From positions 36,045 to 100,044 of IMG/VR virus record IMGVR_UViG_3300037852_000055: a DNA stretch of 64,000 nt. One strand, 5' to 3'. Source of the DNA: a virus. Positions 24,576 to 61,510 of the stretch are shown here, piece after piece. The translations under genes were made by a program, and so were the position numbers. The notes beneath the pieces were generated by a model that searched no databases, had not been told where the DNA came from, and worked only from the letters and a program-made list of their open reading frames with translations. Numbering within the stretch: the stretch's first letter is position 1; every line of letters starts with the position of its first letter.

Positions 24576-24645
24576 ACCTAAGCCTTGATCAGCTTAGGTT
24601 AGAAGAAGGGGTAGCTATCCCTACCCCTTCTTCGACTTTGGATAG
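24576..24645 (+). promoter_or_regulatory. Endonuclease-type pseudoknot leader I
   Basis: P1 is ACCTAAGC/GCTTAGGT (24576-24599). P2 is a 12-pair stem (24603-24614 with 24621-24632) whose 6-base loop CTATCC is complementary to GGATAG at 24640-24645, linked by TTCGACTTT. The 3' strand lies just before the ribosome site of the endonuclease at 24659. Same architecture as leaders II-V. Confidence 0.75.
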
Positions 24646-24658
24646 AAAGAAAATACAA

Positions 24659-25144
24659 ATGAGAACTAAGTCTAACGCAAAAGATTACTATATTTATTTG
24701 ATGAGCTGTGGCCAGTATAACTGGCAAAAGATTGGAATATCTACTAGACCACAGGGTAGAGAGAAAGACATTACTGTACCTTTCAAGTTGGAACTAAGTG
24801 CCACACACGTTATAGCAAACAATTTATCAGACGCAGTAAGAGTTGAGTCAGAAGTACATAAATTGTTGCACTACTTAAGAATAAAGCAAGAATGGTTTCA
24901 TTCTGTGACGGTGGAAGTGTTTGAAGAAGCACTGAAAGAAGTCACTGACAACCCCAACAGAAGATACATAGGGGTTACTCATTCTAAACAAGGTAGTTAT
25001 GTAGCTAAAATACGTGTTCAAGGAGAGGTTAGGCACGTAGGGAGCTTTAGTACTGCTAAGAGAGCAGCAGAGGCCTATGATAGAGCTTCAAAACTGTGGT
25101 ATGGTAACAGTAGACCATTGAATTTCTCAATAGAAAATTCTTAA
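24659..25144 (+). CDS. GIY-YIG endonuclease (T5orf172-like) with AP2 DNA-binding domain
   Basis: I use ATG 24659 (MRTKSNAKDYYIYLM), placing the pseudoknot leader upstream; a TTG at 24638 would overlap it. Residues 9-95 match the T5orf172 branch of GIY-YIG nucleases: YYIYLMSCGQYNWQKIGIST, then RVESEVHKLLH with the catalytic Glu region. Residues 100-161 are an AP2 domain (RRYIGVTHSKQGSYVAKIRV, VGSFSTAKRAAEAYDRAS, LNF). AP2 domains guide homing endonucleases to target DNA. It is a free-standing mobile gene at the head of the rightward arm. Confidence 0.85.
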   Translation: MRTKSNAKDYYIYLMSCGQYNWQKIGISTRPQGREKDITVPFKLELSATHVIANNLSDAVRVESEVHKLLHYLRIKQEWFHSVTVEVFEEALKEVTDNPNRRYIGVTHSKQGSYVAKIRVQGEVRHVGSFSTAKRAAEAYDRASKLWYGNSRPLNFSIENS

Positions 25145-25584
25145 CCTCTCCTCCCCTCGTGCATGCAATGTGCACTTTCTATACGCGCTTCGCGCCTCCG
25201 GTTAACTCCTTTACCCGGTGGGGCGAAACCTAAGCGTATACCTGTACAGAATCTGCAGTGTGATCAGCGATTGCTATGACACTTATCCCCGCAAGGGTGC
25301 TACGTAACTGTCCAATGACAAGGTGTAGGTGCGAACGAGAATGGACGGACTGCAGATAAAGTTTAAAAAGTTTTGTATCAAGAGATCTTCAGCAGCGAAA
25401 TTAAAAGTTGTAAGTCTGATTTGGATTGAGATGCAAATGACCGCCCGTTGGGGCGAGGCCTATGCGCGGCGGCGCTTAGTGGTCTTGCCCAAAAAGAACC
25501 GAGATAGAGAGCAAGATTACCCCTTAGCCTAGCCAGTGAGTGTAAAGGGAAATTTCTACTTTCTGGTTCCACTGGCAAATTTAT
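25145..25584. other. Non-coding region before tRNA-Asn
   Basis: No credible gene. Contains short GC hairpins (CGCGCTTCGCGC at about 25182; GCCCGTTGGGGC near 25443) and another copy of the 15-mer operator-like sequence (CGTATACCTGTACAG at 25219). A 67-codon frame at 25329-25532 lacks a ribosome site and looks random. Confidence 0.4.
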
Positions 25585-25659
25585 TGGCCTGTAGCATAAC
25601 GGCAGTGCTTTTCACTGTTAATGAAACGGGTGTAGGTTCGAGTCCTACCGGGCCAGCCA
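25585..25659 (+). tRNA. tRNA-Asn (GTT), CCA encoded
   Basis: Acceptor TGGCCTG pairs with CGGGCCA (one T-G pair); D-stem GCAT/GTGC; anticodon arm TTTCA-CTGTTAA-TGAAA gives anticodon GTT; T-arm GTAGG-TTCGAGT-CCTAC; then G and CCA. A complete cloverleaf, so it should be functional. It probably helps translate the Asn-rich virion proteins downstream. Confidence 0.93.
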
Positions 25660-25744
25660 TTCCTTGTGAAAGGCAAATATGAACTCAGAGAAATGCAAAG
25701 AAGAACTTTTAGAAAATTTACTGAATACCCTAAGGAGAATACAC

Positions 25745-25933
25745 ATGAGCGTAACGCAACTTGATGCGGACATTCAAACATTGACAACCAACGTACAGGC
25801 CTTGATTACGCAGAGCGCGAACTCAGTGCCTCAATCCGAAGTGGATGCAGCCGATGCCCAAGTGGTTGCTCTGAACACAACTGTAGTTGCTGCGCTGGCA
25901 CCTCCTGCAGCTCCAGCAGCGGCCAAGGCCTAA
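25745..25933 (+). CDS. Small Ala/Thr-rich protein, 62 aa
   Basis: AAGGAGAATACAC precedes ATG 25745 (MSVTQLDADIQTLTTNVQAL). Heptad-like helix then an Ala/Pro tail. An in-frame ATG at 25679 would add 22 residues. Likely a coiled-coil oligomer; function unknown. Confidence 0.55.
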   Translation: MSVTQLDADIQTLTTNVQALITQSANSVPQSEVDAADAQVVALNTTVVAALAPPAAPAAAKA

Positions 25934-26016
25934 GTTTAAAAAGATTAGGAACCGCATAGTCCTTTGACTCTTTAGAGCCAGGGAGAGGTTCCTAAAGAAG
26001 GAGTAAAGTTTCCTCC

Positions 26017-26118
26017 ATGGCCAATCTGAAACTAACCCATTGGGAACCCTACGCCTTTGTGCAAAGAACCAGTGGCAGTCCGTCCTGTACTTGTACCACA
26101 GGCTCCGGCGCGGGGTAA
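26017..26118 (+). CDS. Possible small protein, 33 aa (frame uncertain)
   Basis: ATG 26017 (MANLKLTHWEPYAFVQRTSG) has AAGGAG 12 bases upstream. A second frame, +1 to this one and open from 26050 to 26173 (KEPVAVRPVLVPQAPARGKK), reads more like protein near its end. A frameshift at GTGCAAAG (about 26060) would join them into about 50 residues. Either or neither may be real. Confidence 0.3.
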   Translation: MANLKLTHWEPYAFVQRTSGSPSCTCTTGSGAG

Positions 26119-26256
26119 GAAGGGAAACCGCTTTGTGCACATAGCGCAGCCTCCTGTCGCGCATTCTCAGTAGCGCATAAAATGAGAACCAAAGTTAGTA
26201 AGCCGCGTCCGTGCATGGACGTGCAGACAACAGGACACTTTTATTTGTAAAACCAA

Positions 26257-26287
26257 AGCTCTGCCAGAAATGGTAGGGCTATTTTTA
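26257..26287 (+). terminator. Rho-independent terminator with GAAA tetraloop
   Basis: AGCTCTGCCA-GAAA-TGGTAGGGCT is a 10-pair stem followed by ATTTTTAT. It ends transcription of the tRNA-Asn and small-gene unit before the structural genes. Confidence 0.8.
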
Positions 26288-26360
26288 TGCGTTGAAGACT
26301 CAGGTGAACATACTTTGTCCAGATGATCCGCGCAAGCGGTGCGGACTTAGGAAAATCACT

Positions 26361-26669
26361 ATGAAATACGTATCACAAGCCTTGCTCGAAGCTACGTATA
26401 AAAAATACAACAAGAAATACTTTGGAAATTCTTTACCCAAAGATATTGACCTTCGTTTTGGTCATACCCAGGGAGATCTTGGGTATCAATTGGGTGAAGA
26501 AATTGTGTTGAACAAAAGCAAAGCGTATCGTAGGGATTCCATTTGGAAAGGTACGTTACTACACGAACTTGTCCACTTAAAAGTGGCAGAGAGCAACGAT
26601 CACGGCCCGAAGTTCCAAAAAGAAATGCTAAGACTTGCAAAGGCAGGAGCCTTCAAAGGAATTTGGTAG
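26361..26669 (+). CDS. SprT-like zinc metalloprotease domain protein
   Basis: ATG 26361 follows TTAGGAAAATCACT and gives 102 residues. The zincin motif LHELVHLKVAESNDHGPKF (about residues 68-86) carries HExxH plus the downstream His used as third ligand in SprT/Spartan-like proteins. YNKKYFGNSLPKDIDLRFG is the usual N-terminal part. Such proteins cleave DNA-bound proteins or bind DNA. A TTG start at 26292 is possible but has no ribosome site. Confidence 0.8.
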   Translation: MKYVSQALLEATYKKYNKKYFGNSLPKDIDLRFGHTQGDLGYQLGEEIVLNKSKAYRRDSIWKGTLLHELVHLKVAESNDHGPKFQKEMLRLAKAGAFKGIW

Positions 26670-26698
26670 GTTAAATTAAAAAGACTCAGGAGAATACA

Positions 26699-27031
26699 AT
26701 GGCAGAAACAGTAGAAGCAGCGGCAGAACAACTAGGAACAGCAGTGGAGGGTTCAACGGTAGCGCCTGTGGAGAAGGCAGCAGTGGCTGCAAAAGTGGAA
26801 GTGACAACGGAAGAGAACCTATTTCTACGCACAACCGAGGCCGCGTTCTTACGCGCACAAGTACGCATTAGAGATGCACAGAAGGGCCTAGAAAACCTTG
26901 TAAAAGAAGCGGAAGCCCATAGCAAGACCTATAGTGAAAAAGTGGAGGCATTGTTTAAGAAGTATAGTGTGACTCCTGCAGAATTTTTATGGGATAACTT
27001 AGAGAATTCTTTTAAATCTATAAAGAAGTAA
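26699..27031 (+). CDS. Hypothetical helical protein, 110 aa
   Basis: ATG 26699 follows the extended ribosome site AGACTCAGGAGAATACA. The N-terminus is Ala/Glu/Val-rich (AETVEAAAEQLGTAVEG) and the rest forms long helices. It precedes the terminase genes. No family is recognised. Confidence 0.6.
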   Translation: MAETVEAAAEQLGTAVEGSTVAPVEKAAVAAKVEVTTEENLFLRTTEAAFLRAQVRIRDAQKGLENLVKEAEAHSKTYSEKVEALFKKYSVTPAEFLWDNLENSFKSIKK

Positions 27032-27046
27032 AATTTAGACACACAT

Positions 27047-27114
27047 ATCGGAACTTATAATCCCGATTAGAGTTGGGCAGTGCTCGTTACACTGCCCTTC
27101 TCGACCTTAACGAG
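27047..27114 (+). promoter_or_regulatory. Endonuclease-type pseudoknot leader II
   Basis: P1 is a weak ATCGG/CCGAT. P2 is GGGCAGTG/CACTGCCC (27075-27097) with loop CTCGTTA exactly complementary to TAACGAG (27108-27114), linked by TTCTCGACCT. AGAGGAAAACACA and the ATG follow. The downstream endonuclease is decayed, yet the leader is intact. Confidence 0.75.
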
Positions 27115-27125
27115 AGGAAAACACA

Positions 27126-27350
27126 ATGGGAAGAAAAGTAGTTAATTTTGTTGGGCAAGTTGTTGGTAGCCTTACTATTTTAAAAAGAGTTGAAAACGGT
27201 AATAGAGGAGAAGCCAGATGGCTACTAGAAAAAGCAGCAGCTTATCTTAGAGAATTTGGGTATAAAGATGCAAGACTCAGTGCCAGTGAATATATCCCAG
27301 GAACAAAAACCACAGGAAGTGCCTCAGGAAGTTCCAAAGGAATCTACTGA
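27126..27350 (+). pseudogene. Decayed chimeric homing endonuclease remnant
   Basis: The first 32 residues (MGRKVVNFVGQVVGSLTILK) look like the start of phage HNH proteins that usually continue with zinc Cys residues. Here the frame jumps to WLLEKAAAYLREFGYKD, which matches the C-terminal tail of the endonuclease VII-type genes at 14410 and 41760. The catalytic middle is absent, so a deletion seems to have joined two ends. The remaining codons overlap the next gene in another frame. Confidence 0.65.
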
Positions 27351-27837
27351 GGAGAAACCTAAGGGGCCTTTGGAGTTAGTCGTACGTAATACAAACGGAA
27401 CTTTTAGCACGCGACTGAAAGACCCAAAGACTGGGCACTTCATGAAGAAGGATCGCCCACTTCCTAGTGCCAAGGAATTGGTCAGAGCAGGAAGGCAACT
27501 TCTTACAAGCGCAGAGGCTGGGCCGGATGGCAAGCTTATCAAAGGCAGTAAGACTCGGCATAGAAAGATATTTGACAACCTTGTGCGAATAGCTACATTG
27601 GAAACCGACGACCCCAAAGCACTCATGTCAATTATAAAGGCGGCAGAATTGCTGTACCTAAGGTTCTATGGGAAACCAGCAGTGTCAGACGACGAGCTAG
27701 ACGCGCTTCGTGTGCACGGTGTGAAAGTGGTAATCGTGCAAGCACCTGAGCTTCAAAACAAAGAAGTTGTTCAAGAAAAACCAAAGGAAATGCTTAAACC
27801 GTCATTCATTGAGGCTGAGGTGATTAGTACCAACTAG
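27268..27837 (+). CDS. Possible terminase small subunit
   Basis: The frame is open from ATG 27268 (MQDSVPVNISQEQKPQEVPQ). The position just before the large terminase and the central helical part (SAKELVRAGRQLLTSAEAG and DPKALMSIIKAAELLYLRFY) fit a small terminase, but I see no clear family motif. A Lys-rich segment follows a disordered Pro/Glu-rich start. The 5' end overlaps the endonuclease remnant, so the natural start may have been altered by that insertion. Confidence 0.5.
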   Translation: MQDSVPVNISQEQKPQEVPQEVPKESTEEKPKGPLELVVRNTNGTFSTRLKDPKTGHFMKKDRPLPSAKELVRAGRQLLTSAEAGPDGKLIKGSKTRHRKIFDNLVRIATLETDDPKALMSIIKAAELLYLRFYGKPAVSDDELDALRVHGVKVVIVQAPELQNKEVVQEKPKEMLKPSFIEAEVISTN

Positions 27838-27849
27838 GGGTAAAGAATA

Positions 27850-29562
27850 ATGCCACGGAAACAAGCTCAGGAAGTTGAAGAACGTCCAAAGTATATAGAT
27901 GAAAATGGCGTTCTTAACTTTGATAGTTTATTTAAGTTTCAACCCAAACAAACAGAGTTACTTTGCAATGTTATGCGTGGGGGTCATATGTATACCATGG
28001 CAAAGGCCCCTAAGTGTCTTTCAGTCGGAGGAATTCGCGGTGGAAAAACCTTAGGCTGGTTCATGTTTGGCGTACTTCACTATATTCTTAGGTATCCCGG
28101 TTGTAATATGCTGGTGTTGCGTAGGACATTCAAAGAAATTGAAAAGTCTGTAATTGTAGATGTAACTTCAGGAAAATTTATTCCTAAGGAACTGTTCACG
28201 TATGATCAAACAAAACATGTCATGACCTTTATGAATGGGTCACGAATTGTAATGGGCCATTGTGAACATAATTCTGAAAGAGATTTAGCCGCTTATCTGG
28301 GTTCGGCTTATCCAATAATTCTTCTAGATGAGTGTGGACAATTTTCTCCTGATGCTTGGCTTAGGTTGTACACAAGAAATACTGTTAATGCTGGGTGTGA
28401 AGAAGATGAGTTTGGTAATTTGCCAATTCCAGTTTTAATTGGTTGTACAAACCCTATAGGCCCATTCTATGAGTACTATCGCGCACTTTTTACTTTAAAG
28501 GAACCTTGGAATAAGCCTGAGGATGCACGTAAGGACGAAACCAATGGAACTTGGTGGGTGCCTGAGAGTGGTGAGTGGAGATGTATATATAATCCAAAGG
28601 AATATGCGTGTCAACGTTCCACGGTTTTAGATAACCAAGAACTATTGTTACGTGATCCTGGGATTCTTGCTCGTTTAAATAGTCTACCTAAAGCAAAACG
28701 AGACAAAGAACTTCTTGGGCTTGATGGTGCATATGAAGGACAATTTTTCGATGTGTGGTCTGACGATGCACACACAATAAATTTGAGAGAAGATCCAGAA
28801 GCAGTTATTTGGCAGGACTACCAACCATGCTGGGCTGGAGAAGATTGGGGAATGGGAAGCCAGACTTCAGGTAGCGCAAACGCAACATATTTGTTTACAA
28901 AAGCACTTGTGCGGCAGACCCCAGACTCTGATTACAAACAAAAAACAGTTTGTTTCCAAGAAATAGTTACGGTTGGTGGTAAGACATATAAAGAGCTTGC
29001 CGCTATTATACACAGCAAGTGCCGATTACCAAATGGAAAATCTATTCAACTTAAATCTATTCATTTCAGTCATGAGAAATTTGCACGGCAGATGGATAGG
29101 CATTCTCCTGCAGATGACTATTCAAGGGAATTGAGAACCTATGGACTACCTTCAGTTACTCCTGGTACAAGAGACCGTATAGGACGAGCATCTCTTTTGT
29201 ATAATATGTTAAAAAACGGGGATGTGGCAGTGATGGACACCTGCAAGGATATTATTCTTGCTATACCTTCATTGATGCGAGATCCTGATCATCCCGATGA
29301 TGTACTTAAAGTAAGTACACGTAGTGATGATTGCTACGATGGGTTTACCCTTGGTTTGTATGGGCAGCACGCCTCTAAGAAGAGGCCCACTGAAGAGACC
29401 ATAAGGGACAGGGCTCAGGAGCTGGCGCGTACAGATAAGGTTGCTGCTCACTTCTACCTTTTAAAGAAGGCGGCAGAGGAAGCAAACCGTACAGTTACGT
29501 TTGTTCCAAGAAAACAACCAGTGTGGGTGGGAAAAATGGGTATAACAGGAGACTCAGTGTGA
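27850..29562 (+). CDS. Terminase large subunit
   Basis: The 570-residue protein has the packaging ATPase: Walker A SVGGIRGGKTLGWFMFG (about residues 57-73), a Walker B strand YPIILLDECGQFS (about 154-166) and the nuclease domain with WAGEDWGMGSQTSG (about 330) and SDDCYDGFTLGLYG near the C-terminus. It cuts concatemeric DNA and drives it into the procapsid through the portal. It follows its probable small subunit by 12 bases. Confidence 0.93.
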   Translation: MPRKQAQEVEERPKYIDENGVLNFDSLFKFQPKQTELLCNVMRGGHMYTMAKAPKCLSVGGIRGGKTLGWFMFGVLHYILRYPGCNMLVLRRTFKEIEKSVIVDVTSGKFIPKELFTYDQTKHVMTFMNGSRIVMGHCEHNSERDLAAYLGSAYPIILLDECGQFSPDAWLRLYTRNTVNAGCEEDEFGNLPIPVLIGCTNPIGPFYEYYRALFTLKEPWNKPEDARKDETNGTWWVPESGEWRCIYNPKEYACQRSTVLDNQELLLRDPGILARLNSLPKAKRDKELLGLDGAYEGQFFDVWSDDAHTINLREDPEAVIWQDYQPCWAGEDWGMGSQTSGSANATYLFTKALVRQTPDSDYKQKTVCFQEIVTVGGKTYKELAAIIHSKCRLPNGKSIQLKSIHFSHEKFARQMDRHSPADDYSRELRTYGLPSVTPGTRDRIGRASLLYNMLKNGDVAVMDTCKDIILAIPSLMRDPDHPDDVLKVSTRSDDCYDGFTLGLYGQHASKKRPTEETIRDRAQELARTDKVAAHFYLLKKAAEEANRTVTFVPRKQPVWVGKMGITGDSV

Positions 29563-29930
29563 CCATTGTAGAAGTAGCTCAGACAATTAGGGAAGTGTTC
29601 AGACAACTCTTTAGTACACGCCTAGTCGCGCAATTGACAATGGACTTAATGAATACCAGAGCAGATGCTGAGCGTATGCGTAGCGAATATCAGGGAATCA
29701 TAGCCGATTTGCGGCAGGATAAAGCACAGCTTATCGCAAGGCTTACTATGCACGAGAGCAAAATCGGATTGATTCCATTGGATCAAAAAAAGATAGTACC
29801 CCATTTTGATTTTAGTACATTCCCTCCAGTTAAAACAAGTTGGCAACTGCTTCAGGAAAAGCATGATGAGCAAATGCGACAAGAGTTGGCTGAGGAAGAA
29901 GCACAGAAAAACCAAGTATCAACTGTGTAA
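29559..29930 (+). CDS. Coiled-coil protein, 123 aa
   Basis: GTG 29559 overlaps the terminase stop (GTGTGA) and has AGGAG seven bases upstream. The middle is a helical coiled coil (TRADAERMRSEYQGIIADLR). Position between terminase and portal suggests a virion or assembly role; not assignable. Confidence 0.6.
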   Translation: MTIVEVAQTIREVFRQLFSTRLVAQLTMDLMNTRADAERMRSEYQGIIADLRQDKAQLIARLTMHESKIGLIPLDQKKIVPHFDFSTFPPVKTSWQLLQEKHDEQMRQELAEEEAQKNQVSTV

Positions 29931-29940
29931 GGAGATAAAT

Positions 29941-30171
29941 GTGGCAGATAAGAAAGACAAAGGAACATTAACTCGTATCTACATTAATGTTGCTAAGAAC
30001 GGTTTTGAGCTAGAGTGTAGCTACGAGAAGAAAGCCACTTTATCTCAGAAGGCTGGGTGGGTGCCTTCACCTTATTGTGAACCAGAAAAATACGTAGCAA
30101 AAAGTAAGGCAGATTTAATCAAACAACTAAACGATGTTCTTAAAGACTGCAAAGACTGCAGCGAGAAATAA
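29941..30171 (+). CDS. Hypothetical protein, 76 aa
   Basis: AAGGAGATAAAT precedes GTG 29941. The product has an alpha/beta pattern (RIYINVAKNGFELECSYEKK) and ends with a CKDC pair. Function unknown. Confidence 0.65.
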   Translation: MADKKDKGTLTRIYINVAKNGFELECSYEKKATLSQKAGWVPSPYCEPEKYVAKSKADLIKQLNDVLKDCKDCSEK

Positions 30172-30183
30172 TAGGAGAATACC

Positions 30184-30618: not shown

Positions 30619-30627
30619 AGGAGCAGT

Positions 30628-30975: not shown

Positions 30976-30984
30976 GAGAACCCT

Positions 30985-38665: not shown

Positions 38666-38732
38666 ACCCAAGGGTTGCTCCTTGGGTTAGAGCTTGGGGG
38701 TGCTCGTACACCCCTAGGCTCGACCTTACGAG
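38666..38732 (+). promoter_or_regulatory. Endonuclease-type pseudoknot leader III
   Basis: P1 ACCCAAGG/CCTTGGGT (38666-38687). P2 GGGGTG/CACCCC (38697-38714) with loop CTCGTA complementary to TACGAG (38727-38732), linked by AGGCTCGACCT. The AGAGGAAAT ribosome site and ATG 38746 follow. Confidence 0.75.
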
Positions 38733-38745
38733 AGGAAATAGAGAA

Positions 38746-39348
38746 ATGTTTGGTATTATTTACAGGATTACAAATAAAATTACAGACATGTCCTATGTGG
38801 GACAAACTGTGCAAACCTTAAGAGAGCGGTGGGTGGAGCACGTTTCTCATGCTAAGAACAAAACCACCGATTCCTATATTGCTAAGGCAATACTTAAGTA
38901 CGGAGCAGAAAACTTTGAAATAGCAATCCTGCAAGAGTGTGAAAGTAGAGAAGAGTTGGATTTCTCAGAAGTATTCTATGTATCTCTGCTTAATACTAAA
39001 GTGCCCAATGGGTATAACTTAGCTGATGGTGGTGGAGGAGTATCTGGGTGGGCCAATGGAAAAGGTTGGGTACCTACCGAGGAAACGCGCAGGAAGCTCA
39101 GTGAAGCAGGAAAAGGAAATACCAATGCTTTAGGCAAAAAGTATTCTGCTGAGTTTAGAGTTAAGGTTAGTGCAGCTTTAAAAAGAAGAATACGTAGGAA
39201 AGAATCTTATGAAAAGGCAGCACGAACTGCAATAGAGAACCAAAGCCACAAGCGACCTCTTACTGCTAAACAAATAGCAGGCAACACATCAAGAAGAGGA
39301 AAGCCGTGGTCAGCAGCACGAAGAGAAGCACAAAATAAACGGAGATAG
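38746..39348 (+). CDS. GIY-YIG homing endonuclease with NUMOD3 repeats
   Basis: ATG 38746 is set by the leader and AGAGGAAAT. The catalytic domain starts GIIYRITNKITDMSYVGQTV (GIY...YVG), with Arg in LRERWVEH, Glu in REELDFSEVFYVSLL and NGYNLADGGGG. The C-terminal half has NUMOD3-type DNA-binding repeats (ETRRKLSEAGKGNTNALGKK, FRVKVSAALKRR). It is a free-standing homing gene just upstream of the intron-bearing capsid gene, so it may cut capsid-gene sites. Confidence 0.88.
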   Translation: MFGIIYRITNKITDMSYVGQTVQTLRERWVEHVSHAKNKTTDSYIAKAILKYGAENFEIAILQECESREELDFSEVFYVSLLNTKVPNGYNLADGGGGVSGWANGKGWVPTEETRRKLSEAGKGNTNALGKKYSAEFRVKVSAALKRRIRRKESYEKAARTAIENQSHKRPLTAKQIAGNTSRRGKPWSAARREAQNKRR

Positions 39349-39435
39349 TGTATCTCCTCAGCACTTGCATCCAGAAACGGGATGTTCAAGCCGGAATCTA
39401 GGTGAATGCTAGACAGGTGCTAAGGAGCTATACGC
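39348..39435 (+). ncRNA. Structured repeat element, copy 2
   Basis: GTGTATCTCCTCAGCAC (39348-39364) pairs with GTGCTAAGGAGCTATACGC (39417-39435). Inner stems CATCC/GGATG and CTAG/CTAG follow. Relative to copy 1 (37654) the stem keeps CTCCT/AGGAG but changes AGTA/TACT to AGCA/TGCT, a compensated change. Confidence 0.5.
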
Positions 39436-39463
39436 TCAGATTTCTGGCCTTCAAAACGTTTAG

Positions 39464-39553
39464 CCCGAACCAATCCCTAAAGATTTAAAACTTGATAAGG
39501 CAGAGCGCAGAGAAGCGATTAAGAAACAAACTCAGGCGGAAAAGCCCCGGTAA
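39464..39553 (+). pseudogene. Start-less coding fragment (3' exon or gene remnant)
   Basis: The frame CCC GAA CCA to TAA reads PEPIPKDLKLDKAERREAIK and ends TQAEKPR. It has no ATG, GTG or TTG, and a TAG stands just before it. The composition is clearly protein-like. It could be the displaced C-terminus of the gene at 37805, separated by the endonuclease cassette, or a 3' exon of a further intron. Confidence 0.5.
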
Positions 39554-39614
39554 ATGTTCAGAAATATTTACCATACATACGTGTGGGTTAACCGAAGTAG
39601 TAGGTAATAAGTAT

Positions 39615-41632
39615 ATGGCACTATTAGAGGCTTAACAACAGCAGGCCTCGTTAAATTTCTCCTGATTGTCTTGGAACCTGTGACGGTAACAAGGCGGAAG
39701 ATTTAGAAAAAGTAGCACACAATTTCTAAATCACCGTGAGAGACTAAGCGGAGAAACGTCCAAGGACGATGCGATAGTCCGAGCTTTACGAGAACAGAAT
39801 CGTAAGAGGTTGGCAGAAATGACTAACCATGCATTTTACAATGCATTAACAAAATGGCTGTAGAAGCAGTCGAACTGGACGCCTTTGCTAAGGAAATTCC
39901 TGATTTGGTTTTCCATGGCACAACGGCCTACAGTATGTTCAAAAACGAAGCTACGAAGATCCCTGTGTCTAACCAGAGTAACGCTGGTGGCGTGCAGAGA
40001 CCAAGCTTCAGAGTACCTTTCCGGGTACAGGCTGGTGCTGCAATTAGCCAAGGCACTGGCAACGCAGATTCAATGAACCGGGGAACTGGTAGCCAATGGG
40101 CTTCCTTTGCTCTGGCTCCCGTATATCTGTTTAATGTCTGTGAAATTTCTTGGCTGGCCCAGGCTTCAACGGACAGTAAGCAGAAGGGTTTGTTCGCTGT
40201 CAAAGCCCAGGAGATGAAGAATTCTCTGGATGCGGCTATGCAAGGCATCGAGGGCCTAATCAACTCCGATGGTTCTGGTATGATTGACCAGATTCCTAGC
40301 ACTGCGACCATTGTGCTTTCTGGTGGTTCCCCTGCTTCACAAACTGCTAGTATCGCAGGAGTGAACGTTGCTGTGGCCTTTACGGATCAGCAAGTAGTTC
40401 AGTTCTTCAGTACTGGCGGGGTTCAGCGTACAGGTGGACGTACAACTGCGACCATCTCCTATTCTGATGGCCCAAGCAACACTTTGTACTTCAGTACCGC
40501 TCTCCCTACCGACGTAGTTGTTACCGATTACATCGTTGTGGCTGGCGCAACTTATGGAGCTGGTAACTCCATTCTGGGTATTAAGGCTTGGGATGTGAAT
40601 AGCAATACTGGAACTATCGGCGGATTGAATCGCAATGCTTATCCTGGCCGTTTGAGCACCCCAACCATTAATTTGGCTGGAGCAGCTTTGACCCCAGGCA
40701 TCGGGCAACGCGCAGAAGTACTCCTAGGCCGCGCCCTAGGACCAGATGCGGACAGCATTAAGTCGGGCATTTGGTATGGCCCACCTGAGCAAGCATTCGC
40801 ACAGAGCAATTTGATGTACAATGTGCAAATTGCAAATGCCCAGGATATTAAGGGAGACAAAACCCTTGACATGGGTAAGAAGTACTTCAGTGATACGTTC
40901 TGCGGACGCAAGTATCACAAGAGCTGGACTGCGATTAACAACCGCATGGATTTGCTTGTACTAGACAACTGGTACATTGGAGAGTTGAGCCCACTTGAGC
41001 TGTACGACTTCGGTGGCGGTGAGAAATAACGCTGCTCTATTCAGAAATGAATATTGTGAATCGAGAGAATTCAGGGAAACTCCTTAATGGACAATCCTGA
41101 GCCGAGCCTCGCAAGGGGAAGGTGCAACGACTATTCCGAAAGGAAGTAGGGAACAGTGTTCCCGAAGTACTCGATACCCGTTAGGGTAATGATATAGTCT
41201 GATCTTACAAGGAATTGTGAGAGAGCAAATGGAAACGATTTGCTCGTAACATGAATGAACGTAGTTGCTCCTGTTCCAGACATTAATGGTCAAGCTGGAA
41301 CTTCTAGTTATTTGACCTCGCACATGTTTGCGTATAATACGTGCTTGTCCCAAAAGGTTAGAGCACTTTAAATTCAATCTGATTGACTCGAACCCTGAGA
41401 TGGCAACGAGGCGGAAGGCAAGTTTTTTTGTAACAAAACTTGACACCGTGAGAGACTAAGCGATTGAACACAGTAATGTGATGCAATAGTCCGAGCTTTA
41501 CGAGAACAAAATCGTAAGAGTGTAGCAGAAATGACTACACCATGCTTAAGCATGCAACAATAACGTAACCTAGCAAACGCCGCTCCCAGAGCGGGTCTTT
41601 ATGTGCAAAATGCTGCGGTTCCAACAGTATAA
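39615..41632 (+). CDS. Major capsid protein, four exons
   Basis: Exons 39615-39632, 39857-41020, 41258-41358 and 41566-41632 join to 450 codons including the stop (449 residues). Exon 1 encodes only MALLEA; exon 2 continues AVEAVELDAFAKEIPDLVFH; exon 3 gives NVVAPVPDINGQAGTSSYLT onward; exon 4 ends NLANAAPRAGLYVQNAAVPT V. The joined N-terminus has the helix-then-loop form of HK97-like capsid proteins, and gene order (scaffold just before) agrees. Without splicing, translation from 39615 would stop after six codons. An ATG at 39854 at the end of intron 1 would give a nearly full exon 2 product ending GGGEK. The ribosome site (AGGT) is weak. Confidence 0.8.
39633..39856 (+). ncRNA. Group I intron 1 of the capsid gene (224 nt, no ORF)
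   Basis: P1: exon GAGGCU pairs with internal guide GGCCUC (39644-39649), with the required U-G pair at the splice site. P10: ACAGC just upstream of the guide pairs with GCUGU, the start of exon 2. P3 UUUCUCC/GGAGAAA; P7 GACUA/UAGUC (GUGAGAGACUAAGCG and GCGAUAGUCCGAGC); a 10-pair arm GAUUUAG/CUAAAUC; P9 hairpins; last base G (39856). All the signs of a group I ribozyme are present. Confidence 0.88.
41021..41257 (+). ncRNA. Group I intron 2 of the capsid gene (237 nt, no ORF)
   Basis: Exon end GGCGGU pairs with guide GCUGCU (41031-41036), U-G at the splice site. P3 region UCAGG...CCUGA; the classical strings GACAAUCCUGAGCC, GUGCAACGACUAUUCC and AUGAUAUAGUCUGAUC give P4, P7 (GACUA/UAGUC) and neighbours; UACCC/GGGUA and GAGCAAAU/GAUUUGCUC hairpins. 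It differs in core sequence from introns 1 and 3 and is closer to T4 td-type or tRNA-Leu-type introns. The 3' end (41257) is set by frame and a terminal G; P10 is weak, so it may be off by a few bases. Confidence 0.82.
41359..41565 (+). ncRNA. Group I intron 3 of the capsid gene (207 nt, no ORF)
   Basis: Closely related to intron 1: shared GAUUG(U/A)CU and GAGGCGGAAG, CACCGUGAGAGACUAAGCG, AUAGUCCGAGCUUUACGAGAAC and the P9 end. P3 is UUCAAUC/GAUUGAA here against UUUCUCC/GGAGAAA in intron 1, a compensated change. P1 is short (AAAGGU with GC-A-CUUU), so the 5' boundary is less certain. The 3' end is G 41565. Frame continuity through exon 4 supports the joint. Confidence 0.8.
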
Positions 41633-41649: not shown

Positions 41650-41679
41650 TTGACTTAGCCTCATGAACTTTGTTATACT
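41650..41679 (+). promoter_or_regulatory. Promoter of the endonuclease VII-type gene
   Basis: TTGACT (41650-41655), an 18-base spacer, TATACT (41674-41679). It would start a message covering leader V and the endonuclease. Confidence 0.65.
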
Positions 41680-41702: not shown

Positions 41703-41746
41703 GGGAGCAGCCTGACACTGCTCCCGATTCCATAAATCGTGTCAGG
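41703..41746 (+). promoter_or_regulatory. Endonuclease-type pseudoknot leader V
   Basis: GGGAGCAG/CTGCTCCC (41703-41725) with loop CCTGACA complementary to TGTCAGG (41740-41746). The single-stranded linker of the other leaders is here a small GATT/AATC hairpin. AGGAG and ATG 41760 follow. Confidence 0.72.
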
Positions 41747-41759
41747 AGATTTTATTAGG

Positions 41760-42299
41760 ATGCCAACCAGCAAAGGAACATTGCATTTAAGTAGTACAAA
41801 ACTTGAGAAGTATGGAATTACAGCAGAGATGTACAGGGAGTCTAGAGAAAAAGGGCTAAAGTGGTGTGGATGGCACAAGAGGTTTGAAGAGCCTTTGTTG
41901 TTTAATAAAGGGTGTAAGTTGTGTAGAGAAGGTGCCAAAGAAAGAGACAGGGAACTTTATGGTAAGTTTGGGAATGCAAGAAAACACCATGCTCCTAAAA
42001 ACCACTATGAAGATACTTTGTTAAAGCAAGACGGACACTGTGCATTATGCTCAGCAACTGAAGGAACAGGTCTTCATATTAGGCTACACATTGACCATGA
42101 CCACAAGTGCTGTAACAAAAAATCTTCCTGTGGCAAGTGCTTACGGGGTCTTCTTTGTTGGGAATGCAACCATCAATTGGGAAGATTAGAAGAACTGCTA
42201 ACACAAGTAGAAACCATTGTTCCCGCCCCCGGTACGTGGCTAGAGAAAGCCTTGGGGTATCTTAAGCATTGGCAAGAGGTTCATAATGGTACTCACTGA
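41760..42299 (+). CDS. Endonuclease VII-type HNH endonuclease (free-standing)
   Basis: ATG 41760 (MPTSKGTLHLSSTKLEKYG) follows AGGAG at about 11 bases. The 179-residue protein has a Cys/His knuckle (KWCGWHKRF, CKLCREG) and then the catalytic block GHCALCSATEGTG, LHIDHDHKCCNKK and CLRGLLCWECNHQLG typical of endonuclease VII. The C-terminal helix ALGYLKHWQEV resembles the gene at 14410. It lies 128 bases after the capsid stop with its own promoter, so it is well placed to mobilise capsid-gene introns in trans. Confidence 0.85.
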   Translation: MPTSKGTLHLSSTKLEKYGITAEMYRESREKGLKWCGWHKRFEEPLLFNKGCKLCREGAKERDRELYGKFGNARKHHAPKNHYEDTLLKQDGHCALCSATEGTGLHIRLHIDHDHKCCNKKSSCGKCLRGLLCWECNHQLGRLEELLTQVETIVPAPGTWLEKALGYLKHWQEVHNGTH

Positions 42300-45158: not shown

Positions 45159-45420
45159 TGAATTGGTTCAACCTGCCTTCGATAAATTCTGGGACAACCC
45201 CCCATCTCGCAGAGAACTACAGAAGGCCTTCAACAAGATTGGTCAGAACCAAGACTACTTGTTTGGTGCTGTTGATACTCAGGCCCTTGTTGGAAACTTC
45301 CTTTGTGAAACCCTAGGAGTTACTAAGGGTCAACTTGATGCTTATGTTGCCAAGAAAGCTGCAGAGTTAGAAGAGCAAAGGAAAAAAGCTGAAGAGGAAG
45401 CAAAGATAAATGCTCAGTAG
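45145..45420 (+). CDS. Hypothetical protein, 91 aa
   Basis: ATG 45145 overlaps the GroES-like gene end. The product (MGEPSELVQPAFDKFWDNPP) ends in a Lys/Glu/Ala helix (AAELEEQRKKAEEEAKINAQ). Likely assembly-related; no family recognised. Confidence 0.6.
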   Translation: MGEPSELVQPAFDKFWDNPPSRRELQKAFNKIGQNQDYLFGAVDTQALVGNFLCETLGVTKGQLDAYVAKKAAELEEQRKKAEEEAKINAQ

Positions 45421-45784
45421 AGTTGAAAAAAAGAAGGCTTCTATAAGAGCATCAAAGTGGAACAAAGAAAACCCTAAACGCCATAAAGAGATACACAAAG
45501 CTATGAGAGCACGTAGAAAGTTGGATGTGCTTACACATTATGGCCCTAAAGGAAAACTTGGGTGTTGTTGGAAGGGTTGTAAAGTTATTGACATTGATAT
45601 GCTATCTTTAGACCATATGAACAATGATGGCCATCTTCATCTTAAGAACGGTTTAAAAGTTCAGGGACAAGCCTTGTATTTAGATGTAAAGAACAGGAAT
45701 TTTCCAAAGGGTTTTCAAACTCTGTGCCACAATCATCAACAAAAGAAGATGATTATGTTAGCGAGAGGAGAACCCCTTGTATAG
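45410..45784 (+). CDS. HNH homing endonuclease (free-standing)
   Basis: The 124-residue protein has a basic start (RVEKKKASIRASKWNKENPK) and the HNH site LSLDHMNNDGHLHLKNGLKV with FQTLCHNHQQKKM at the end. It overlaps the gene before by 11 bases and the TTG start of the next by eight, with no own promoter or pseudoknot leader, so it relies on the operon message. Confidence 0.8.
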   Translation: MLSRVEKKKASIRASKWNKENPKRHKEIHKAMRARRKLDVLTHYGPKGKLGCCWKGCKVIDIDMLSLDHMNNDGHLHLKNGLKVQGQALYLDVKNRNFPKGFQTLCHNHQQKKMIMLARGEPLV

Positions 45785-53023: not shown

Positions 53024-53025
53024 AA

Positions 53026-54887: not shown

Positions 54888-54899
54888 GAGGCTCAGTGA

Positions 54900-55085: not shown

Positions 55086-55163
55086 CTGAGCAATCAGTAG
55101 AACAACGACAACGTATCCGATAGGCTGGGTATACCCAAGCCGAGGCGGGGAAAAGAGAAAAGT

Positions 55164-55541: not shown

Positions 55542-55550
55542 GGAGCACTA

Positions 55551-55769: not shown

Positions 55770-55838
55770 ACACAGAATCTACTCTGGATAAGTAGAGATG
55801 GCCGTGAGAATCGGCCTACATTTTAGGAGGAGAACACA

Positions 55839-58800
55839 GTGGGCCACAACCTTGAGCAATTAGGTACAGCTTCTTTAGATACGATGGGTGGTCTCTATGC
55901 ACAGGCTAATCCTCAGGATCTTCCAGAGGGAGCTTCTCCTCGAACCTATGATACAGATTTTATTGTAGGCAGTGTGTTTACTCGACCAGGCCTTGTTTCT
56001 ATATACACATACACTAACACTCTAAACATTACCAAAGTGATCATTGGTAGCGGTAATGTTGGTATGTTTTCTTACAATGGGGCAACAATCCCAGTTATAA
56101 ACGAAGGCTTTTTACTACAGGGATTTACTGGTGCAGCTGAGTTTCTTAACGATCAAGTAGTGTATGTATTAGCTACCAACACTATGCTAGGCATATTCAC
56201 TGCAGTTGTTGTGGGGCCTTCTGGAGCGTATATAAATTTATCAGGAACTGCTATATCTACTGTGGGGCAGTTTGTCGGCCCCAATGCCCCAACGGTTGCA
56301 GTCAATGCAGTTTTAGATGGGGTTCCTTGGAGTAACCCAGGGGGTATTCTTGGGGACACTAGTTATGCTTCTGTGGCTTCTTCTGGACTAGTAAACTCAG
56401 AACTGATACCAGAAGTGTCTGTGAATGACGGTTCAGGGACAACTTCAAAGCCTGCTTGGTCTAATCCCAGTAATGTGACTTCTACTTCTAGTTTAGCAAC
56501 TGTAGTGTTGACCAGTTCGCCTTTGCAGCTTAGCTCTGTAGATATAGTTTCTACAGGACTTGGATTAGAGTTGCCTAGTAATGCGGTTATAGAAGGGCTT
56601 TCAATATCTTTACAATCGGCCTTTGCATTTTCCGGCACCACTACAGGAAATCAAGGCCCTTTAGAGGGTAGTGTGTCATCAGGAGCAGGGTGGTCTGGTT
56701 CTATAGCTTCTGGAGGCTCAGCCTCTATAGTTGTAAACCCTGGAACACAATCTTCAGTACTAACAGGCTCTTCCTTTGGTTTTAGTATTCCTACTACAGC
56801 CACTATAACGGGGATTTCTGCTACAGTGACAGCTTCTACTATAAATGGGGCAAACCAAATAGGGACTTTGATTCTTCACTTAACTTTAGGAGGAGAAAAG
56901 GTACAGCTTCTAACGTCTTCCCCAGTAAGAACTACATATGGAGGAAGTACAGACCTTTGGAGTATTCCAAGTGTTTCTGTTTCTCAAATAAATTCTTCTA
57001 GTTTTGGAATAGAACTACAAGGCTCGGCCCCTGTATCTACAGACCCCCCACACTTTGTAGCTGGGACTGCGGACATAACTGTTAGTGATGTAGTTTTGAC
57101 TGTGTATTATAACAATGGTGGGGCGTCTGGAAATGCTTCTGTAAGCCTACAGCTTACCCAGGCCGGGACAGCTATAGGGTCAGTAACAAGTTTTGCTTTG
57201 ACTAACTCCCTTACCACCTATGTGGCAGGGTCTCCTTTTTATCTTTGGGGAACAGCATTAACTCCGTCTGTGGTAAATGATCCAACTTTTGGGGTTTTAA
57301 TTGGAGCACAATCTGGGGTGTTTGAACCTAACACTTCTTACACCATTGATGCTAACAATCTTCAATTTACTTTGTACTACAGTGTTACTGGTACAGACGG
57401 TTTACAAGCCAAAGCTTTTAATTTTTCAATACAACCCACTAACGGAGTGACAGGTTTAGAAACTACTTATCAAGCTTATAGTAGTTCTTCCAATACATTA
57501 ACTTTCCAGTTGATAAAGAATGGGGTAGCCGTAGGTGTGCCTAAGGTGCAAACTATTACTACTACACCTACTATTTATTCTCTAGGAGGAGGAAATGATC
57601 TCTGGGGAACTGCATGGTCTTACTCTGACATAAACAGCGTAGGGTTTGGATGGCAGGTTACTTCTTCTGGCGGTGGCACAGCGTTTATAAATGATGTTGA
57701 TATGCTTGTATTTATCACGCCTGGACTAGCAGACTTTAACTACATAAAATCTTACATACAGAACAACGAGAGAATCACTACGTTAGCTTTAGATTCTCTT
57801 GGAAATATGTGGGGTGAAGATGTAACGGATCTCCCTGGTATTTTTTCTTTGGAGAGCATTTATATAACCCCTGGAACTTATGCTAAGAGCGCAACTTCAG
57901 ACAATCAAGAGTATATTGTATTCTCTAATCTAAGAGTTGGAACGGACAGACCTAGGGTAGCAAGTATAAATTCATCGGATGAAGTACAATTTTTGCCGTT
58001 GTCACAAATAGGCCCAGGGGCTCCCCCATCGTTTACAGCTTCTTTAGGCAATGGTATTAATGCTCTGGTAGTAACCGCATACTCTATAGTATCTGGGGTA
58101 GCAACTTTTACATTTACTGCCGTAGCAGGATTTACACCTTCCGTGGGGTCTCTATATTTGATCTCAGGAACAGGAAACACTGGGTTGGATGGAAATACTT
58201 TTATAGTTCTTGGAACCCCAGCACCAACTTCTACTACGTTTTCTGTTTCAACAACTGCAGTGGGGTCTGGATCAGGCCTAAGTGCCGAAGCAACTCCAGC
58301 CTATAGCTACAGCATTTCTTCTATAACACAACCAGCGGCAGCGCCATTTAACGGACAAATACTTCTATGGAGTGCTGGCCCTAGTTCTACCACCCCAGGA
58401 ACTACTCTTACATTTTTCTATGGGGGAGCAGGGCAAGCAGAGAACCCCGGCATATTAACAGCTTTTAACTCTAATAACCCATGTATAGTTTACATTACAG
58501 GGGTTCCAGCCGGAGCGCCTGGAAACGGTACATGGTTAGTTACAAGCCACGGCATAGGGGTTCCTCCTAGTGAAAACCTTAGTGTTCCTTTCTTTACTGT
58601 AACTTATACCTCCTCTAATTACCAAAGGTATGGTGGGCCAGGAGGTTCTGGGCCAAACGGCCCCGGAAATGATGGTAACTTCCAAATAACTTTAGCCACT
58701 ATAGACACAAACACTTTTGTGGCAGACTTATCTTCAGGGGATACCATACAAATTACCGGAGCAATTCCGGCTGGATGGAACAGTAGTTGGACAGTACAAA

Positions 58801-61409
58801 GCCCTCTTAAGAGCGCAACGCTTAATATCACTTCCAGTGCTATGAGTTCTGGAGGAGTTGCAACCTATGGGTATACCATCACTAGTACCCCAGCAGTGTC
58901 CCCTGTTAATGGGCAATTGGTTACCACCAGCAACTTAACCAACGCTGCAGTATTTAATACTACAGGGGTTATGTCTAATGTAACTGGGTCAACTTTCCAA
59001 ATTTCGGGGTTTCCAGCAGGAAATGCAATACTCCAAGCAGTGGAAGATGGACAAGCAGTTACATTTGGAACTTCCTTTACATTTGATCCTGGTACTAATG
59101 ATGTTGGCACTACTACTCCTTCCCCTATATTTGGAAATGATACAGGAACGGGACTGTTATCGGTGGTGGGGTCTTCTATTGTTCCTATAGGAGCAGGTAC
59201 ACGGCAGGGTGTAGTGTTTTTTATAACGGAAAGTGGGTATGAAACTGCAGCATCTGCCCCAGCAGTATTTACTACGTCAGAGGATGCTAATTTTATCTTT
59301 GCTAGTAATCTTCCTATTGGCCCTCCCAATGTTATTGCAAGAGGCATTGCTTTTACAGAGGCAGGGCAAAACGGTGTACCTGGAGAAAATTTTTATGTAA
59401 TACCAAATCCAGTAACCATTACCGTAGGAAACACATCAACAACCTACACAGCTACTATTGTACAAGATAACACCACAACTAGTGCTAAGTTTTCGTTTAC
59501 AGATGCTGTTCTTCTTAAATCTCAAGCCATAGATATACAAGGTAATGACCTGTTTAACTTGGTTGAGCTTGGAAGTTCTGCTTGGTGTTTGCCTTATGCT
59601 GGTCGTATGTTTTATGGGTTACAATTAAACAAAATTAACAACTGGACTTCCGGTGGAGGACTTACCTTTGACGGAGGCTACTTGTCCAACGGGGTAAATG
59701 GCAGTGCTGCTAGCGAGAACGTTGCACTCCTTGGTGGCCCCTATGCTAATTTACAGCCTTTAGGTTGGAACATAGGCACGGCTGTTGACCAAACATTAGT
59801 AACTAGTCCTATTGCTGGGCAGTCCTTGTATATAAAAGACACATATCCTGGCACAACTGCTAAGGTGGGACTTATATGGCAAACTGCATACAGAGATCCA
59901 TACCAAGTTGCTATCATAAACCCTAATACAGAATACTCGGTTAGAGTAACCGCAGAGTGTCCTTCCGGTGTAAACCAAGGAACATTAGTGATTGATCTTA
60001 CTGACTATAACCCAGGCATTGGCTTTGGCCAAACTTATGGGTCATTTTCTGTGCCACTGATTAGCATGACTTCTAACATGCAGGTATTTGTAGGAGCATT
60101 GTTGACCACTCCATTTACAACAGGAGTATCACAAAATTTACAGATACGTATGTATGTACAAAACATGGGATACTTATCGGACTGCCTTGTGGATAGAGTA
60201 GAGGTTTTCCCCACGGCACAACCTTATATACTCGCCCAGGTGTATGGGTCTTACGCAGACGATCTAGAAGCAATTGATGCGTCTGGTTCTGGTGGAATCA
60301 TTAATACCACATCAGAGAATCCCCAAGCATGTCTGGGTGGTTTTGTAATGCACGATGAGATGTATCTTCTAAAGTTAAACTCATGGTATGCAGCACAGGA
60401 CAACCCAAACTCTGAGCCGGGAGGCTGGTCTCTTAGGGAGATCTCTAATAGAGTTGGTACCTGCGGCATAAATGCCTATGATACTGGAGAAGAGTGGGCG
60501 GTCACTGCTTGTAGAGAAGGAATCTACGGCTTTAACGGTGGACAGCCAGTTAAGCTGATGCAAGAACTGTGGAATCTTTGGGAAACAATTAATTGGGAAG
60601 CTGGGAATACAATTTGGCTTCGCAATGACATTGTTAACAAGAGAATCCTATGTGCTGTGCCTTTACCTACGGGCACTAATCCTGTTACAGGGGTTCCAAC
60701 AGCCACTACCCTATGGTTGCCTAATTCACCATACAACCCTGCTCCGGTTTCCCCAAACGTAATGCTCATGCTCAATTACCAAGCATTTGCCACGTTTGAT
60801 GAAATGATCAGCGGCATGCCTGTCCACTCTACTATGTTTGGCACCTTAGCGGCTCCAGACATGAGGAGAAAGTGGTCTATTTGGCAGATACCTAGTCCAT
60901 ACGCTGATTTTATTACAAGGCAAGATGGGTTAGATCAACCTTTATTCATAGGGAACGGAATAGACTCTTCTAAGATTTATAGGTTAGACAATAACCAAAA
61001 ATCTGACGATGGTGTTGCTATAGATTCTCTTTATTGTACCTATGGGTTTACGAACGCGACGAAGAGCACTACCATCCCCATACTAGGCATGCACCGAAAA
61101 CAGTTTTCTGTTTTTCAAACAACTATTGAAGGTGCAGGAAATGCTAGTGTTACTTTGTACCCAGATACATTGGGAGCTAAGTATCCCTATGTTATACCAG
61201 GAGGAATAAACCTAAGTAACCCTGCAATGCAAGATGCATTTAGACCTTTGAATGTGGTTGGCAATAGACTCTTTGTAGAGACTAGAACCAATGCAGTTGG
61301 AAGCTGGTTCAACCTTGATAAACTGTTGCTTACTGGCAGAAGTGCTCCTTACTCTAACCTCAATCCTCTTGGAGGAATGAATAGAGGCATAGTTGCAGGA
61401 GCTACATAG
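55839..61409 (+). CDS. Giant tail protein with beta-propeller-like end, 1856 aa
   Basis: GGAGGAGAACACA precedes GTG 55839. The start (LGTASLDTMGGLYAQANPQD, then GASPRTYDTDFIVGSVFTRP) is a form known from podovirus tail nozzle-type proteins. The middle (about residues 200-1150) is Ser/Thr/Gly-rich with repeated beta modules. The C-terminal 500 residues (GGFVMHDEMYLLKLNSWYAA, GEEWAVTACREGIYGFNGG, VMLMLNYQAFATFDEM) resemble the propeller part of T7 gp12-like nozzles. It is twice the usual size because of the inserted modules. Confidence 0.55.
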   Translation: MGHNLEQLGTASLDTMGGLYAQANPQDLPEGASPRTYDTDFIVGSVFTRPGLVSIYTYTNTLNITKVIIGSGNVGMFSYNGATIPVINEGFLLQGFTGAAEFLNDQVVYVLATNTMLGIFTAVVVGPSGAYINLSGTAISTVGQFVGPNAPTVAVNAVLDGVPWSNPGGILGDTSYASVASSGLVNSELIPEVSVNDGSGTTSKPAWSNPSNVTSTSSLATVVLTSSPLQLSSVDIVSTGLGLELPSNAVIEGLSISLQSAFAFSGTTTGNQGPLEGSVSSGAGWSGSIASGGSASIVVNPGTQSSVLTGSSFGFSIPTTATITGISATVTASTINGANQIGTLILHLTLGGEKVQLLTSSPVRTTYGGSTDLWSIPSVSVSQINSSSFGIELQGSAPVSTDPPHFVAGTADITVSDVVLTVYYNNGGASGNASVSLQLTQAGTAIGSVTSFALTNSLTTYVAGSPFYLWGTALTPSVVNDPTFGVLIGAQSGVFEPNTSYTIDANNLQFTLYYSVTGTDGLQAKAFNFSIQPTNGVTGLETTYQAYSSSSNTLTFQLIKNGVAVGVPKVQTITTTPTIYSLGGGNDLWGTAWSYSDINSVGFGWQVTSSGGGTAFINDVDMLVFITPGLADFNYIKSYIQNNERITTLALDSLGNMWGEDVTDLPGIFSLESIYITPGTYAKSATSDNQEYIVFSNLRVGTDRPRVASINSSDEVQFLPLSQIGPGAPPSFTASLGNGINALVVTAYSIVSGVATFTFTAVAGFTPSVGSLYLISGTGNTGLDGNTFIVLGTPAPTSTTFSVSTTAVGSGSGLSAEATPAYSYSISSITQPAAAPFNGQILLWSAGPSSTTPGTTLTFFYGGAGQAENPGILTAFNSNNPCIVYITGVPAGAPGNGTWLVTSHGIGVPPSENLSVPFFTVTYTSSNYQRYGGPGGSGPNGPGNDGNFQITLATIDTNTFVADLSSGDTIQITGAIPAGWNSSWTVQSPLKSATLNITSSAMSSGGVATYGYTITSTPAVSPVNGQLVTTSNLTNAAVFNTTGVMSNVTGSTFQISGFPAGNAILQAVEDGQAVTFGTSFTFDPGTNDVGTTTPSPIFGNDTGTGLLSVVGSSIVPIGAGTRQGVVFFITESGYETAASAPAVFTTSEDANFIFASNLPIGPPNVIARGIAFTEAGQNGVPGENFYVIPNPVTITVGNTSTTYTATIVQDNTTTSAKFSFTDAVLLKSQAIDIQGNDLFNLVELGSSAWCLPYAGRMFYGLQLNKINNWTSGGGLTFDGGYLSNGVNGSAASENVALLGGPYANLQPLGWNIGTAVDQTLVTSPIAGQSLYIKDTYPGTTAKVGLIWQTAYRDPYQVAIINPNTEYSVRVTAECPSGVNQGTLVIDLTDYNPGIGFGQTYGSFSVPLISMTSNMQVFVGALLTTPFTTGVSQNLQIRMYVQNMGYLSDCLVDRVEVFPTAQPYILAQVYGSYADDLEAIDASGSGGIINTTSENPQACLGGFVMHDEMYLLKLNSWYAAQDNPNSEPGGWSLREISNRVGTCGINAYDTGEEWAVTACREGIYGFNGGQPVKLMQELWNLWETINWEAGNTIWLRNDIVNKRILCAVPLPTGTNPVTGVPTATTLWLPNSPYNPAPVSPNVMLMLNYQAFATFDEMISGMPVHSTMFGTLAAPDMRRKWSIWQIPSPYADFITRQDGLDQPLFIGNGIDSSKIYRLDNNQKSDDGVAIDSLYCTYGFTNATKSTTIPILGMHRKQFSVFQTTIEGAGNASVTLYPDTLGAKYPYVIPGGINLSNPAMQDAFRPLNVVGNRLFVETRTNAVGSWFNLDKLLLTGRSAPYSNLNPLGGMNRGIVAGAT

Positions 61410-61422
61410 TTTGTGGTATACT
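61393..61422 (+). promoter_or_regulatory. Promoter of the GIY-YIG/AP2 gene
   Basis: TTGCAG (61393-61398), 18 bases ending TTTGTGG, TATACT (61417-61422). It overlaps the last codons of the giant tail gene and drives leader IV. The -10 context TTGTGGTATACT is the same as at 2798. Confidence 0.6.
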
Positions 61423-61439
61423 AAAGTTAGGTGAGAAAT

Positions 61440-61510
61440 CCTAAGGCTTAGCGGCCTTAGGCTAGAGTTTGGGAGGTGCCTGATACACCTCCCTTCTCGA
61501 CCTTATCAGG
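61440..61510 (+). promoter_or_regulatory. Endonuclease-type pseudoknot leader IV
   Basis: P1 CCTAAGGC/GCCTTAGG (61440-61461). P2 GGGAGGTG/CACCTCCC (61471-61493) with loop CCTGATA complementary to TATCAGG (61504-61510), linked by TTCTCGACCT. The 3' strand itself ends in the GG of the AGGAGG ribosome site, so pairing would hide part of it. ATG 61518 follows. Confidence 0.78.

Follow-up and report, generated by a model that had tools for sequence, protein, structure and literature searches.

The window, a 64,000-base stretch of a 100,044-base virus record, contains five leaders on the plus strand, each directly 5′ of a start codon. In all of them a P2 hairpin, whose stem we call S1, presents a loop complementary to a downstream strand (the S2 pairing), and a short third hairpin, P3 (stem S3), closes around the ribosome-binding site. 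At locus 1, a P1 hairpin (ACCTAAGC/GCTTAGGT; 24576–24599) is followed by a 13-bp P2 stem-loop (24602–24633) with the loop CTATCC (24615–24620). P3 (24635–24649) joins ACTTT (24635–24639) to AAAG (24646–24649), and its loop, GGATAG (24640–24645), pairs with that of P2. The gene (24659–25144) encodes a 161-residue T5orf172/MUG113 endonuclease of the GIY-YIG superfamily, the C-terminal part of which is akin to AP2 endonuclease. All helices are kept at this locus, though a recognizable Shine–Dalgarno (SD) sequence is absent. About 440 bases with no likely gene and no Rfam match (25145–25584) separate the gene from a tRNA-Asn (25585–25659).

Loci 2, 3 and 5 share the linker GACCT. Locus 2 comprises P1 (27048–27066), a P2 stem-loop of GAG/CTC plus 8 bp (27070–27102; loop CTCGTTA, 27083–27089) and, at 27103–27118, the linker, the S2 3′ strand TAACGAG (27108–27114) and the SD AGGA, which together form P3. 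Behind it lies a 74-residue remnant open reading frame (ORF; 27126–27350), the beginning of which is like an HNH/AP2-type endonuclease only to the eye, with no family match, and the 3′ part of which shares bases with the beginning of the next ORF. Locus 3 has P1 at 38666–38687, a 13-bp P2 stem-loop at 38690–38721 (loop CTCGTA, 38703–38708) and the linker, the strand TACGAG (38727–38732) and the SD in P3 at 38722–38736, before a 200-residue GIY-YIG endonuclease with NUMOD3 (38746–39348). At locus 5, P1 (61440–61461) and a P2 stem-loop of GAG/CTC plus 8 bp (61465–61498; loop CCTGATA, 61479–61485) precede the linker, the strand TATCAGG (61504–61510) and the SD AGGAGG in P3 (61499–61514); the gene (61518–62237) encodes a 239-residue GIY-YIG endonuclease with a weak NUMOD3 match. 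Locus 4 has no P1. Its P2 stem-loop (GGGAGCAG/CTGCTCCC; 41703–41725; loop CCTGACA, 41711–41717) is followed by a P3 (41732–41755) that pairs ATAAATC (41732–41738) with GATTTTAT (41748–41755) around the S2 3′ strand TGTCAGG (41740–41746), and by a gene for a 179-residue endonuclease VII-type protein (41760–42299). A promoter-like TTGACT-18-TATACT (41650–41679), a consensus match only, lies upstream of the whole fold.

A preliminary description of this DNA had reported these five leaders and every loop/partner pair, all of which are present as described. The architecture it proposed, of P1, P2 and a 3′ strand, holds at every locus as far as P2 and S2 are concerned, locus 4 lacking P1. The genes, which it had called unrelated, fall into four kinds, since loci 3 and 5 belong to the same GIY-YIG family. 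Between loci 3 and 4, a group I intron match (41011–41221) adjoins a 391-residue ORF (39854–41029) for which tblastn returned nothing, and the non-coding stretches 39349–39853 and 41330–41560 have in common, as judged by eye, a group I-like 3′ core (GAGACTAAGCG...ATAGTCCGAGCTTTACGAGAAC). We rejected the idea that the leader belongs to a group I intron; such introns are found close to some loci, and the leaders fall outside the matches.

A mechanical scan of both strands of the whole 100-kb record for stems of 6 bp or more whose loops have 6 nt or more exactly complementary to a strand 4–18 nt downstream returned the five loci and three other matches. These three sit away from start codons, and shuffled sequence yields 0–2 matches per strand. 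RNAfold, which is blind to pseudoknots, gives nested z-scores of −5.7, −4.2, −5.5, −2.8 and −3.6 for loci 1–5 and predicts P2 and the hairpin around the ribosome-binding site at every locus, together with P1 in four of the five.

To extend the sample, we gathered related records from IMG/VR through homologues of the terminase and the endonucleases and through the pattern TAGAGTTGGGN{15,33}TCTCGACCT, for which 10 of 10 matching stretches carry a pseudoknot leader 5′ of a start codon. A covariance model, the search proposed in the preliminary description, was built from 22 seed leaders on P1 and S1 only and was therefore blind to S2. It gave 68 matches (60 distinct) in loci of the related records, 38 of the distinct matches being further to the seed; at locus 4, where the linker is divergent, it matches the P2 part only, and weakly (E 0.03). 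In 33 of those 38, 6–7 nt of the P2 loop are exactly complementary to the strand that precedes the SD; permuting the 3′ strands gives 1.5 such cases on average and never more than 7 (2000 trials). Fifty other virus records, chosen by pattern matches or as homologues of two endonucleases, contributed two weak matches (E 0.02–0.05). A leader blastn search of 50,697 phage records found nothing. Two stricter patterns were discarded: CTCGACCTTAN{3,7}AGGAAA gave 25 matches in IMG/VR, all by chance, and the exact TAGAGTTGGG...TTCTCGACCT gave three in 84,980 cellular genomes, none of them a leader.

The covariation cited earlier in support of the fold is thin on five sequences and strong with about 60 more. 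An alignment of 30 leaders without gaps has 99.1% of S1 cells and 87.6% of S2 cells paired; both sides have changed in 9 of the 11 S1 pairs and in all seven S2 pairs. Among the unpaired S2 cells are those of a leader that lacks a complement and of others whose strands are shifted by one base. By pair counts, S2 scores 0.712, against 0.184 for shuffled and at most 0.170 for slid controls, the shuffles ignoring the tree. Mean energies over 49 leaders are −15.8 kcal/mol for S1 and −11.1 kcal/mol for S2. P1 stems vary freely while their loops fall into a few recurrent types, several of them palindromic (GATC, TATA, TCGA, AATT and CATG centers).

The linker had been noted as kept at four of the loci; we add that its 3′ end is complementary to what follows the S2 strand, in most cases the remainder of the SD or its surroundings, and so makes the third helix. 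The partners change together, as GACCT/AGG, GATCT/AGAT, GTCC/GGAC and ACCCT/AGGGT and, in the window, ACTTT/AAAG at locus 1 and AAATC/GATTT at locus 4. Across 68 leaders, S3 positions 1–4 are paired in 94, 97, 90 and 43%, and positions 2, 3 and 4, though not position 1, lie above all 5000 shuffles. Because the linker pairs 3′ of the S2 strand, that strand sits as a loop on a small hairpin, and S2 may be seen as a loop–loop kissing interaction. The overall fold is thus a P1 hairpin followed by two hairpins with mutually pairing loops and a buried SD. In the main leader type S3 spans only 3–4 bp, and the two pairings, S2 and S3, may be alternatives instead of forming at once; both points weigh against the lock proposed below.

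A GC-rich H-type pseudoknot in which the first stem makes about one turn has the look of a frameshift stimulator, which favors reading the leader as a frameshift element, or else as a ribozyme or transcription-termination element, that stands before these genes by chance. That reading is exceedingly unlikely: the leader occupies the gap before a start codon in nearly all cases and has no U tract, and Rfam 15 (cmscan, E up to 1, the window and five other leader-bearing loci) gave no ribozyme or other match on any leader, a search of Rfam having been proposed at the outset.

The position of the fold relative to the ribosome-binding site is nearly fixed. The 3′ strand of S2 covers 1–4 nt of the SD in 48 of 49 leaders and ends 7–9 nt 5′ of the start codon in 41. 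Farther upstream, the stop codon of a same-strand ORF lies mostly 6–17 nt 5′ of P1, so that most leader genes are probably read from the message of the upstream gene. Computation establishes the helices, the SD overlap, the fixed spacing and the association with nuclease genes described below, and we infer that the structure lowers translation. The hiding of the ribosome-binding site proposed earlier accordingly stands as predicted structure, the regulation being our reading of it, and the structural burial of the SD lends support to the suggestion of a common control signal.

We consider it likely that the leader acts in cis as a translational lock on homing endonuclease genes. On this model, the mRNA would fold with P1 upstream, a long GC-rich P2 of about one helical turn and a short P3 around the ribosome-binding site, and the P2 loop would pair fully with the P3 loop over 6–7 bp. 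The SD would be divided, its first 1–4 nt in S2 and the remainder in S3, so that the 30S subunit could not bind well until the fold opens. With the genes only a few nucleotides behind a same-strand stop, the lock would keep nuclease levels low on a read-through message and would also prevent coupling to the upstream gene. The one non-nuclease gene with an intact leader (below) and the lack of a recognizable SD at locus 1 weigh against the model, as does the precedent of timP, in which a pseudoknot near the ribosome-binding site belongs to the active conformation and is required for translation (PMC11228461).

That precedent, the short distance from upstream stops to P1 and the many leaderless endonuclease genes that start within the upstream gene or at its stop, seemingly using coupling, would also suit a leader that keeps terminating upstream ribosomes out or, by presenting the ribosome-binding site in a defined manner, sets a moderate, constant rate. 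An enhancer, however, would not need the SD to be base-paired, as it is in almost all leaders, and we regard an insulating or enhancing role as unlikely. An example of a leaderless gene in the window is an HNH-like gene (45410–45784), the beginning of which shares 11 nt with the end of the preceding ORF, an arrangement that suggests translational coupling in place of the lock. A few other leaderless endonuclease genes have a promoter-like site just 5′.

The leader is strongly linked to endonuclease genes, as had been expected. In five large genomes a pseudoknot precedes the start of 25 of 47 endonuclease genes and 5 of 515 others (Fisher p = 8e-26), and the covariance model adds two more leader-bearing endonuclease genes. 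Only one of the five other genes has what looks like a real leader: in G084, an intact copy stands 5′ of a 331-residue protein with no match in Pfam, PHROGs or NCBIfam (L286:12653–13730, equivalent to G084:51653–52730), and an endonuclease gene overlaps the end of this gene. By Pfam and PHROGs, the downstream proteins are of the GIY-YIG, HNH, HNH/AP2, endonuclease VII and T5orf172/MUG113 types and also include the GIY-YIG-like/NUMOD3 homing endonuclease family. Just 12 of 56 distinct homologues of the GIY-YIG-like family have a pseudoknot leader, indicating that the leader belongs to phage groups rather than to a nuclease family.

The alternative suggested earlier, a leader that travels as a module, also has support. 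In six records (L032, L043, L044, L047, L284 and L299) a leader and nuclease occupy exactly the interval from the terminase stop codon to the next gene; in relatives without the insertion the two genes adjoin one another. This single gap has received leaders with nucleases of at least three classes, and model matches adjoin the terminase end in further records as well. Nearest-neighbor leaders share a nuclease class in 26% of cases, against 17% by permutation (p = 0.09), so tight co-inheritance of leader and nuclease class is unsupported, and they share a genome in 4%. Since neighbors seldom share class or genome, leaders and ORFs have been reshuffled. Insertion as a block and the independence of leader likeness from nuclease class would fit a purely DNA-level role, in which the leader offers homologous sequence for swapping nuclease ORFs by recombination and regulates nothing. 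Recombination alone cannot explain pairing that is kept as the sequence diverges, nor the register with the SD and start codon, and none of the five model matches that lack a pairing loop is followed at the usual distance by a full nuclease ORF. Covariation has already largely refuted this idea, which we hold to be very unlikely.

A second leader type, found in records G098–G100 (at L399, L400, L404 and L405), has AATTCT or ACTCT as its linker, lacks the GAG/CTC extension and has a longer S3, but keeps the same architecture and again stands mostly 5′ of nucleases. A homologous terminase was not found in G098–G100, nor in G087, which has many leaders of the main type; these records may be fragments. 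The leader-bearing phages are uncultured and probably span more than one lineage.

The second type bears on whether the lock also has a key, that is, whether the leader, riboswitch-like or operator-like, is bound by a small molecule or by a protein of phage or host origin that turns all the homing endonuclease genes on or off as a single nuclease regulon. Such a switch, which is compatible with the lock, would use as its binding site the TAG before S1, the linker GA, a TT/TT internal loop and the recurrent P1 loops. Near-invariant bases that are unpaired or do not covary do lie beside the helices, P1 has few loop types, one leader class serves unlike genes within one genome, and the SD of class I preQ1 riboswitches is likewise hidden in H-type pseudoknots of a comparable kind (PMC11625349). 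The second leader type, however, keeps the fold without the CTAG/GACC bases, which are thus not an absolute requirement; no candidate ligand or protein emerged, and no Rfam riboswitch matched. We consider a regulated switch possible but rather doubtful. Autoregulation by the nuclease itself was rejected because unrelated nucleases have the leader in common.

Sequestration of the ribosome-binding site by RNA structure is established for homing genes of the T4 group: in I-TevI, I-TevII, I-TevIII, Aeh1 mobE and T4 segB, the translation start is likewise hidden on read-through transcripts (PMC2988022, PMC3014915). As in I-TevI and mobE, the SD of the leader is engaged in base pairs of a stable structure that precedes a homing endonuclease gene. 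The T4-group hairpins, however, are simple and gene-specific, whereas the leader is one covarying pseudoknot or kissing fold common to unrelated nucleases. The T4-group genes also have a late promoter so placed that late transcripts escape the inhibitory structure. We saw no promoter inside the leader at the five window loci, where the arms are too close together, phage-specific promoter types being possible; we therefore place the leader outside the T4-group arrangement. The same genome does hold an I-TevI-like arrangement, in a leaderless endonuclease VII-type gene (14310–14913) with a promoter-like TTGTAT-17-TATAAT (14362–14390) between a TTTCCC-rich upstream arm and the SD AGGGGA, so that its transcripts would not include the inhibitory arm. 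In Aeromonas phage 25, a stable hairpin just before the ribosome-binding site of seg43(25) resembles the leader, but it is reported without that site inside and no loop–loop pairing is described (PMC2988022).

Two other pseudoknots invite comparison. Although class I preQ1 riboswitches place the SD in a pseudoknot helix, as the leader does, the leader differs in its much longer first stem, its additional P1 and P3 and its unrelated genes, and the lack of an Rfam match means that it has the consensus aptamer sequence and fold of neither preQ1 nor SAM-II riboswitches. The autoregulatory pseudoknot of T4 gene 32 is also a phage mRNA-leader pseudoknot in translational control (PMC3014915); it lies ~67 nt upstream of the start, binds gp32 and controls a single-strand-binding protein gene, whereas the leader contains the SD and precedes nucleases of several classes. 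None of the open-access papers that we searched describes the leader, which agrees with the initial impression that no such shared pseudoknot class was known.

The most likely role of the leader is to bury the SD and to reduce nuclease translation on read-through messages. The control of phage homing endonucleases has so far been known gene by gene, in T4 and its relatives; what is new here is an undescribed covarying RNA class that serves at least five nuclease types, with several copies per genome. We put forward, as a tentative extension that is possible though not probable, that this one RNA class with its two linker types is a transferable regulatory RNA, taken up by unrelated selfish nucleases as they entered these phages, and forms a selfish-gene regulon across the genome, which some phage factor may unlock at a set time. 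The leader provides an annotation handle that marks homing genes, remnants included, a compact SD-burying RNA for study and a system for asking how selfish genes stay quiet inside essential-gene operons. If the regulon reading is true, homing endonucleases would be quieted in these phages by a common mRNA lock and not gene by gene.
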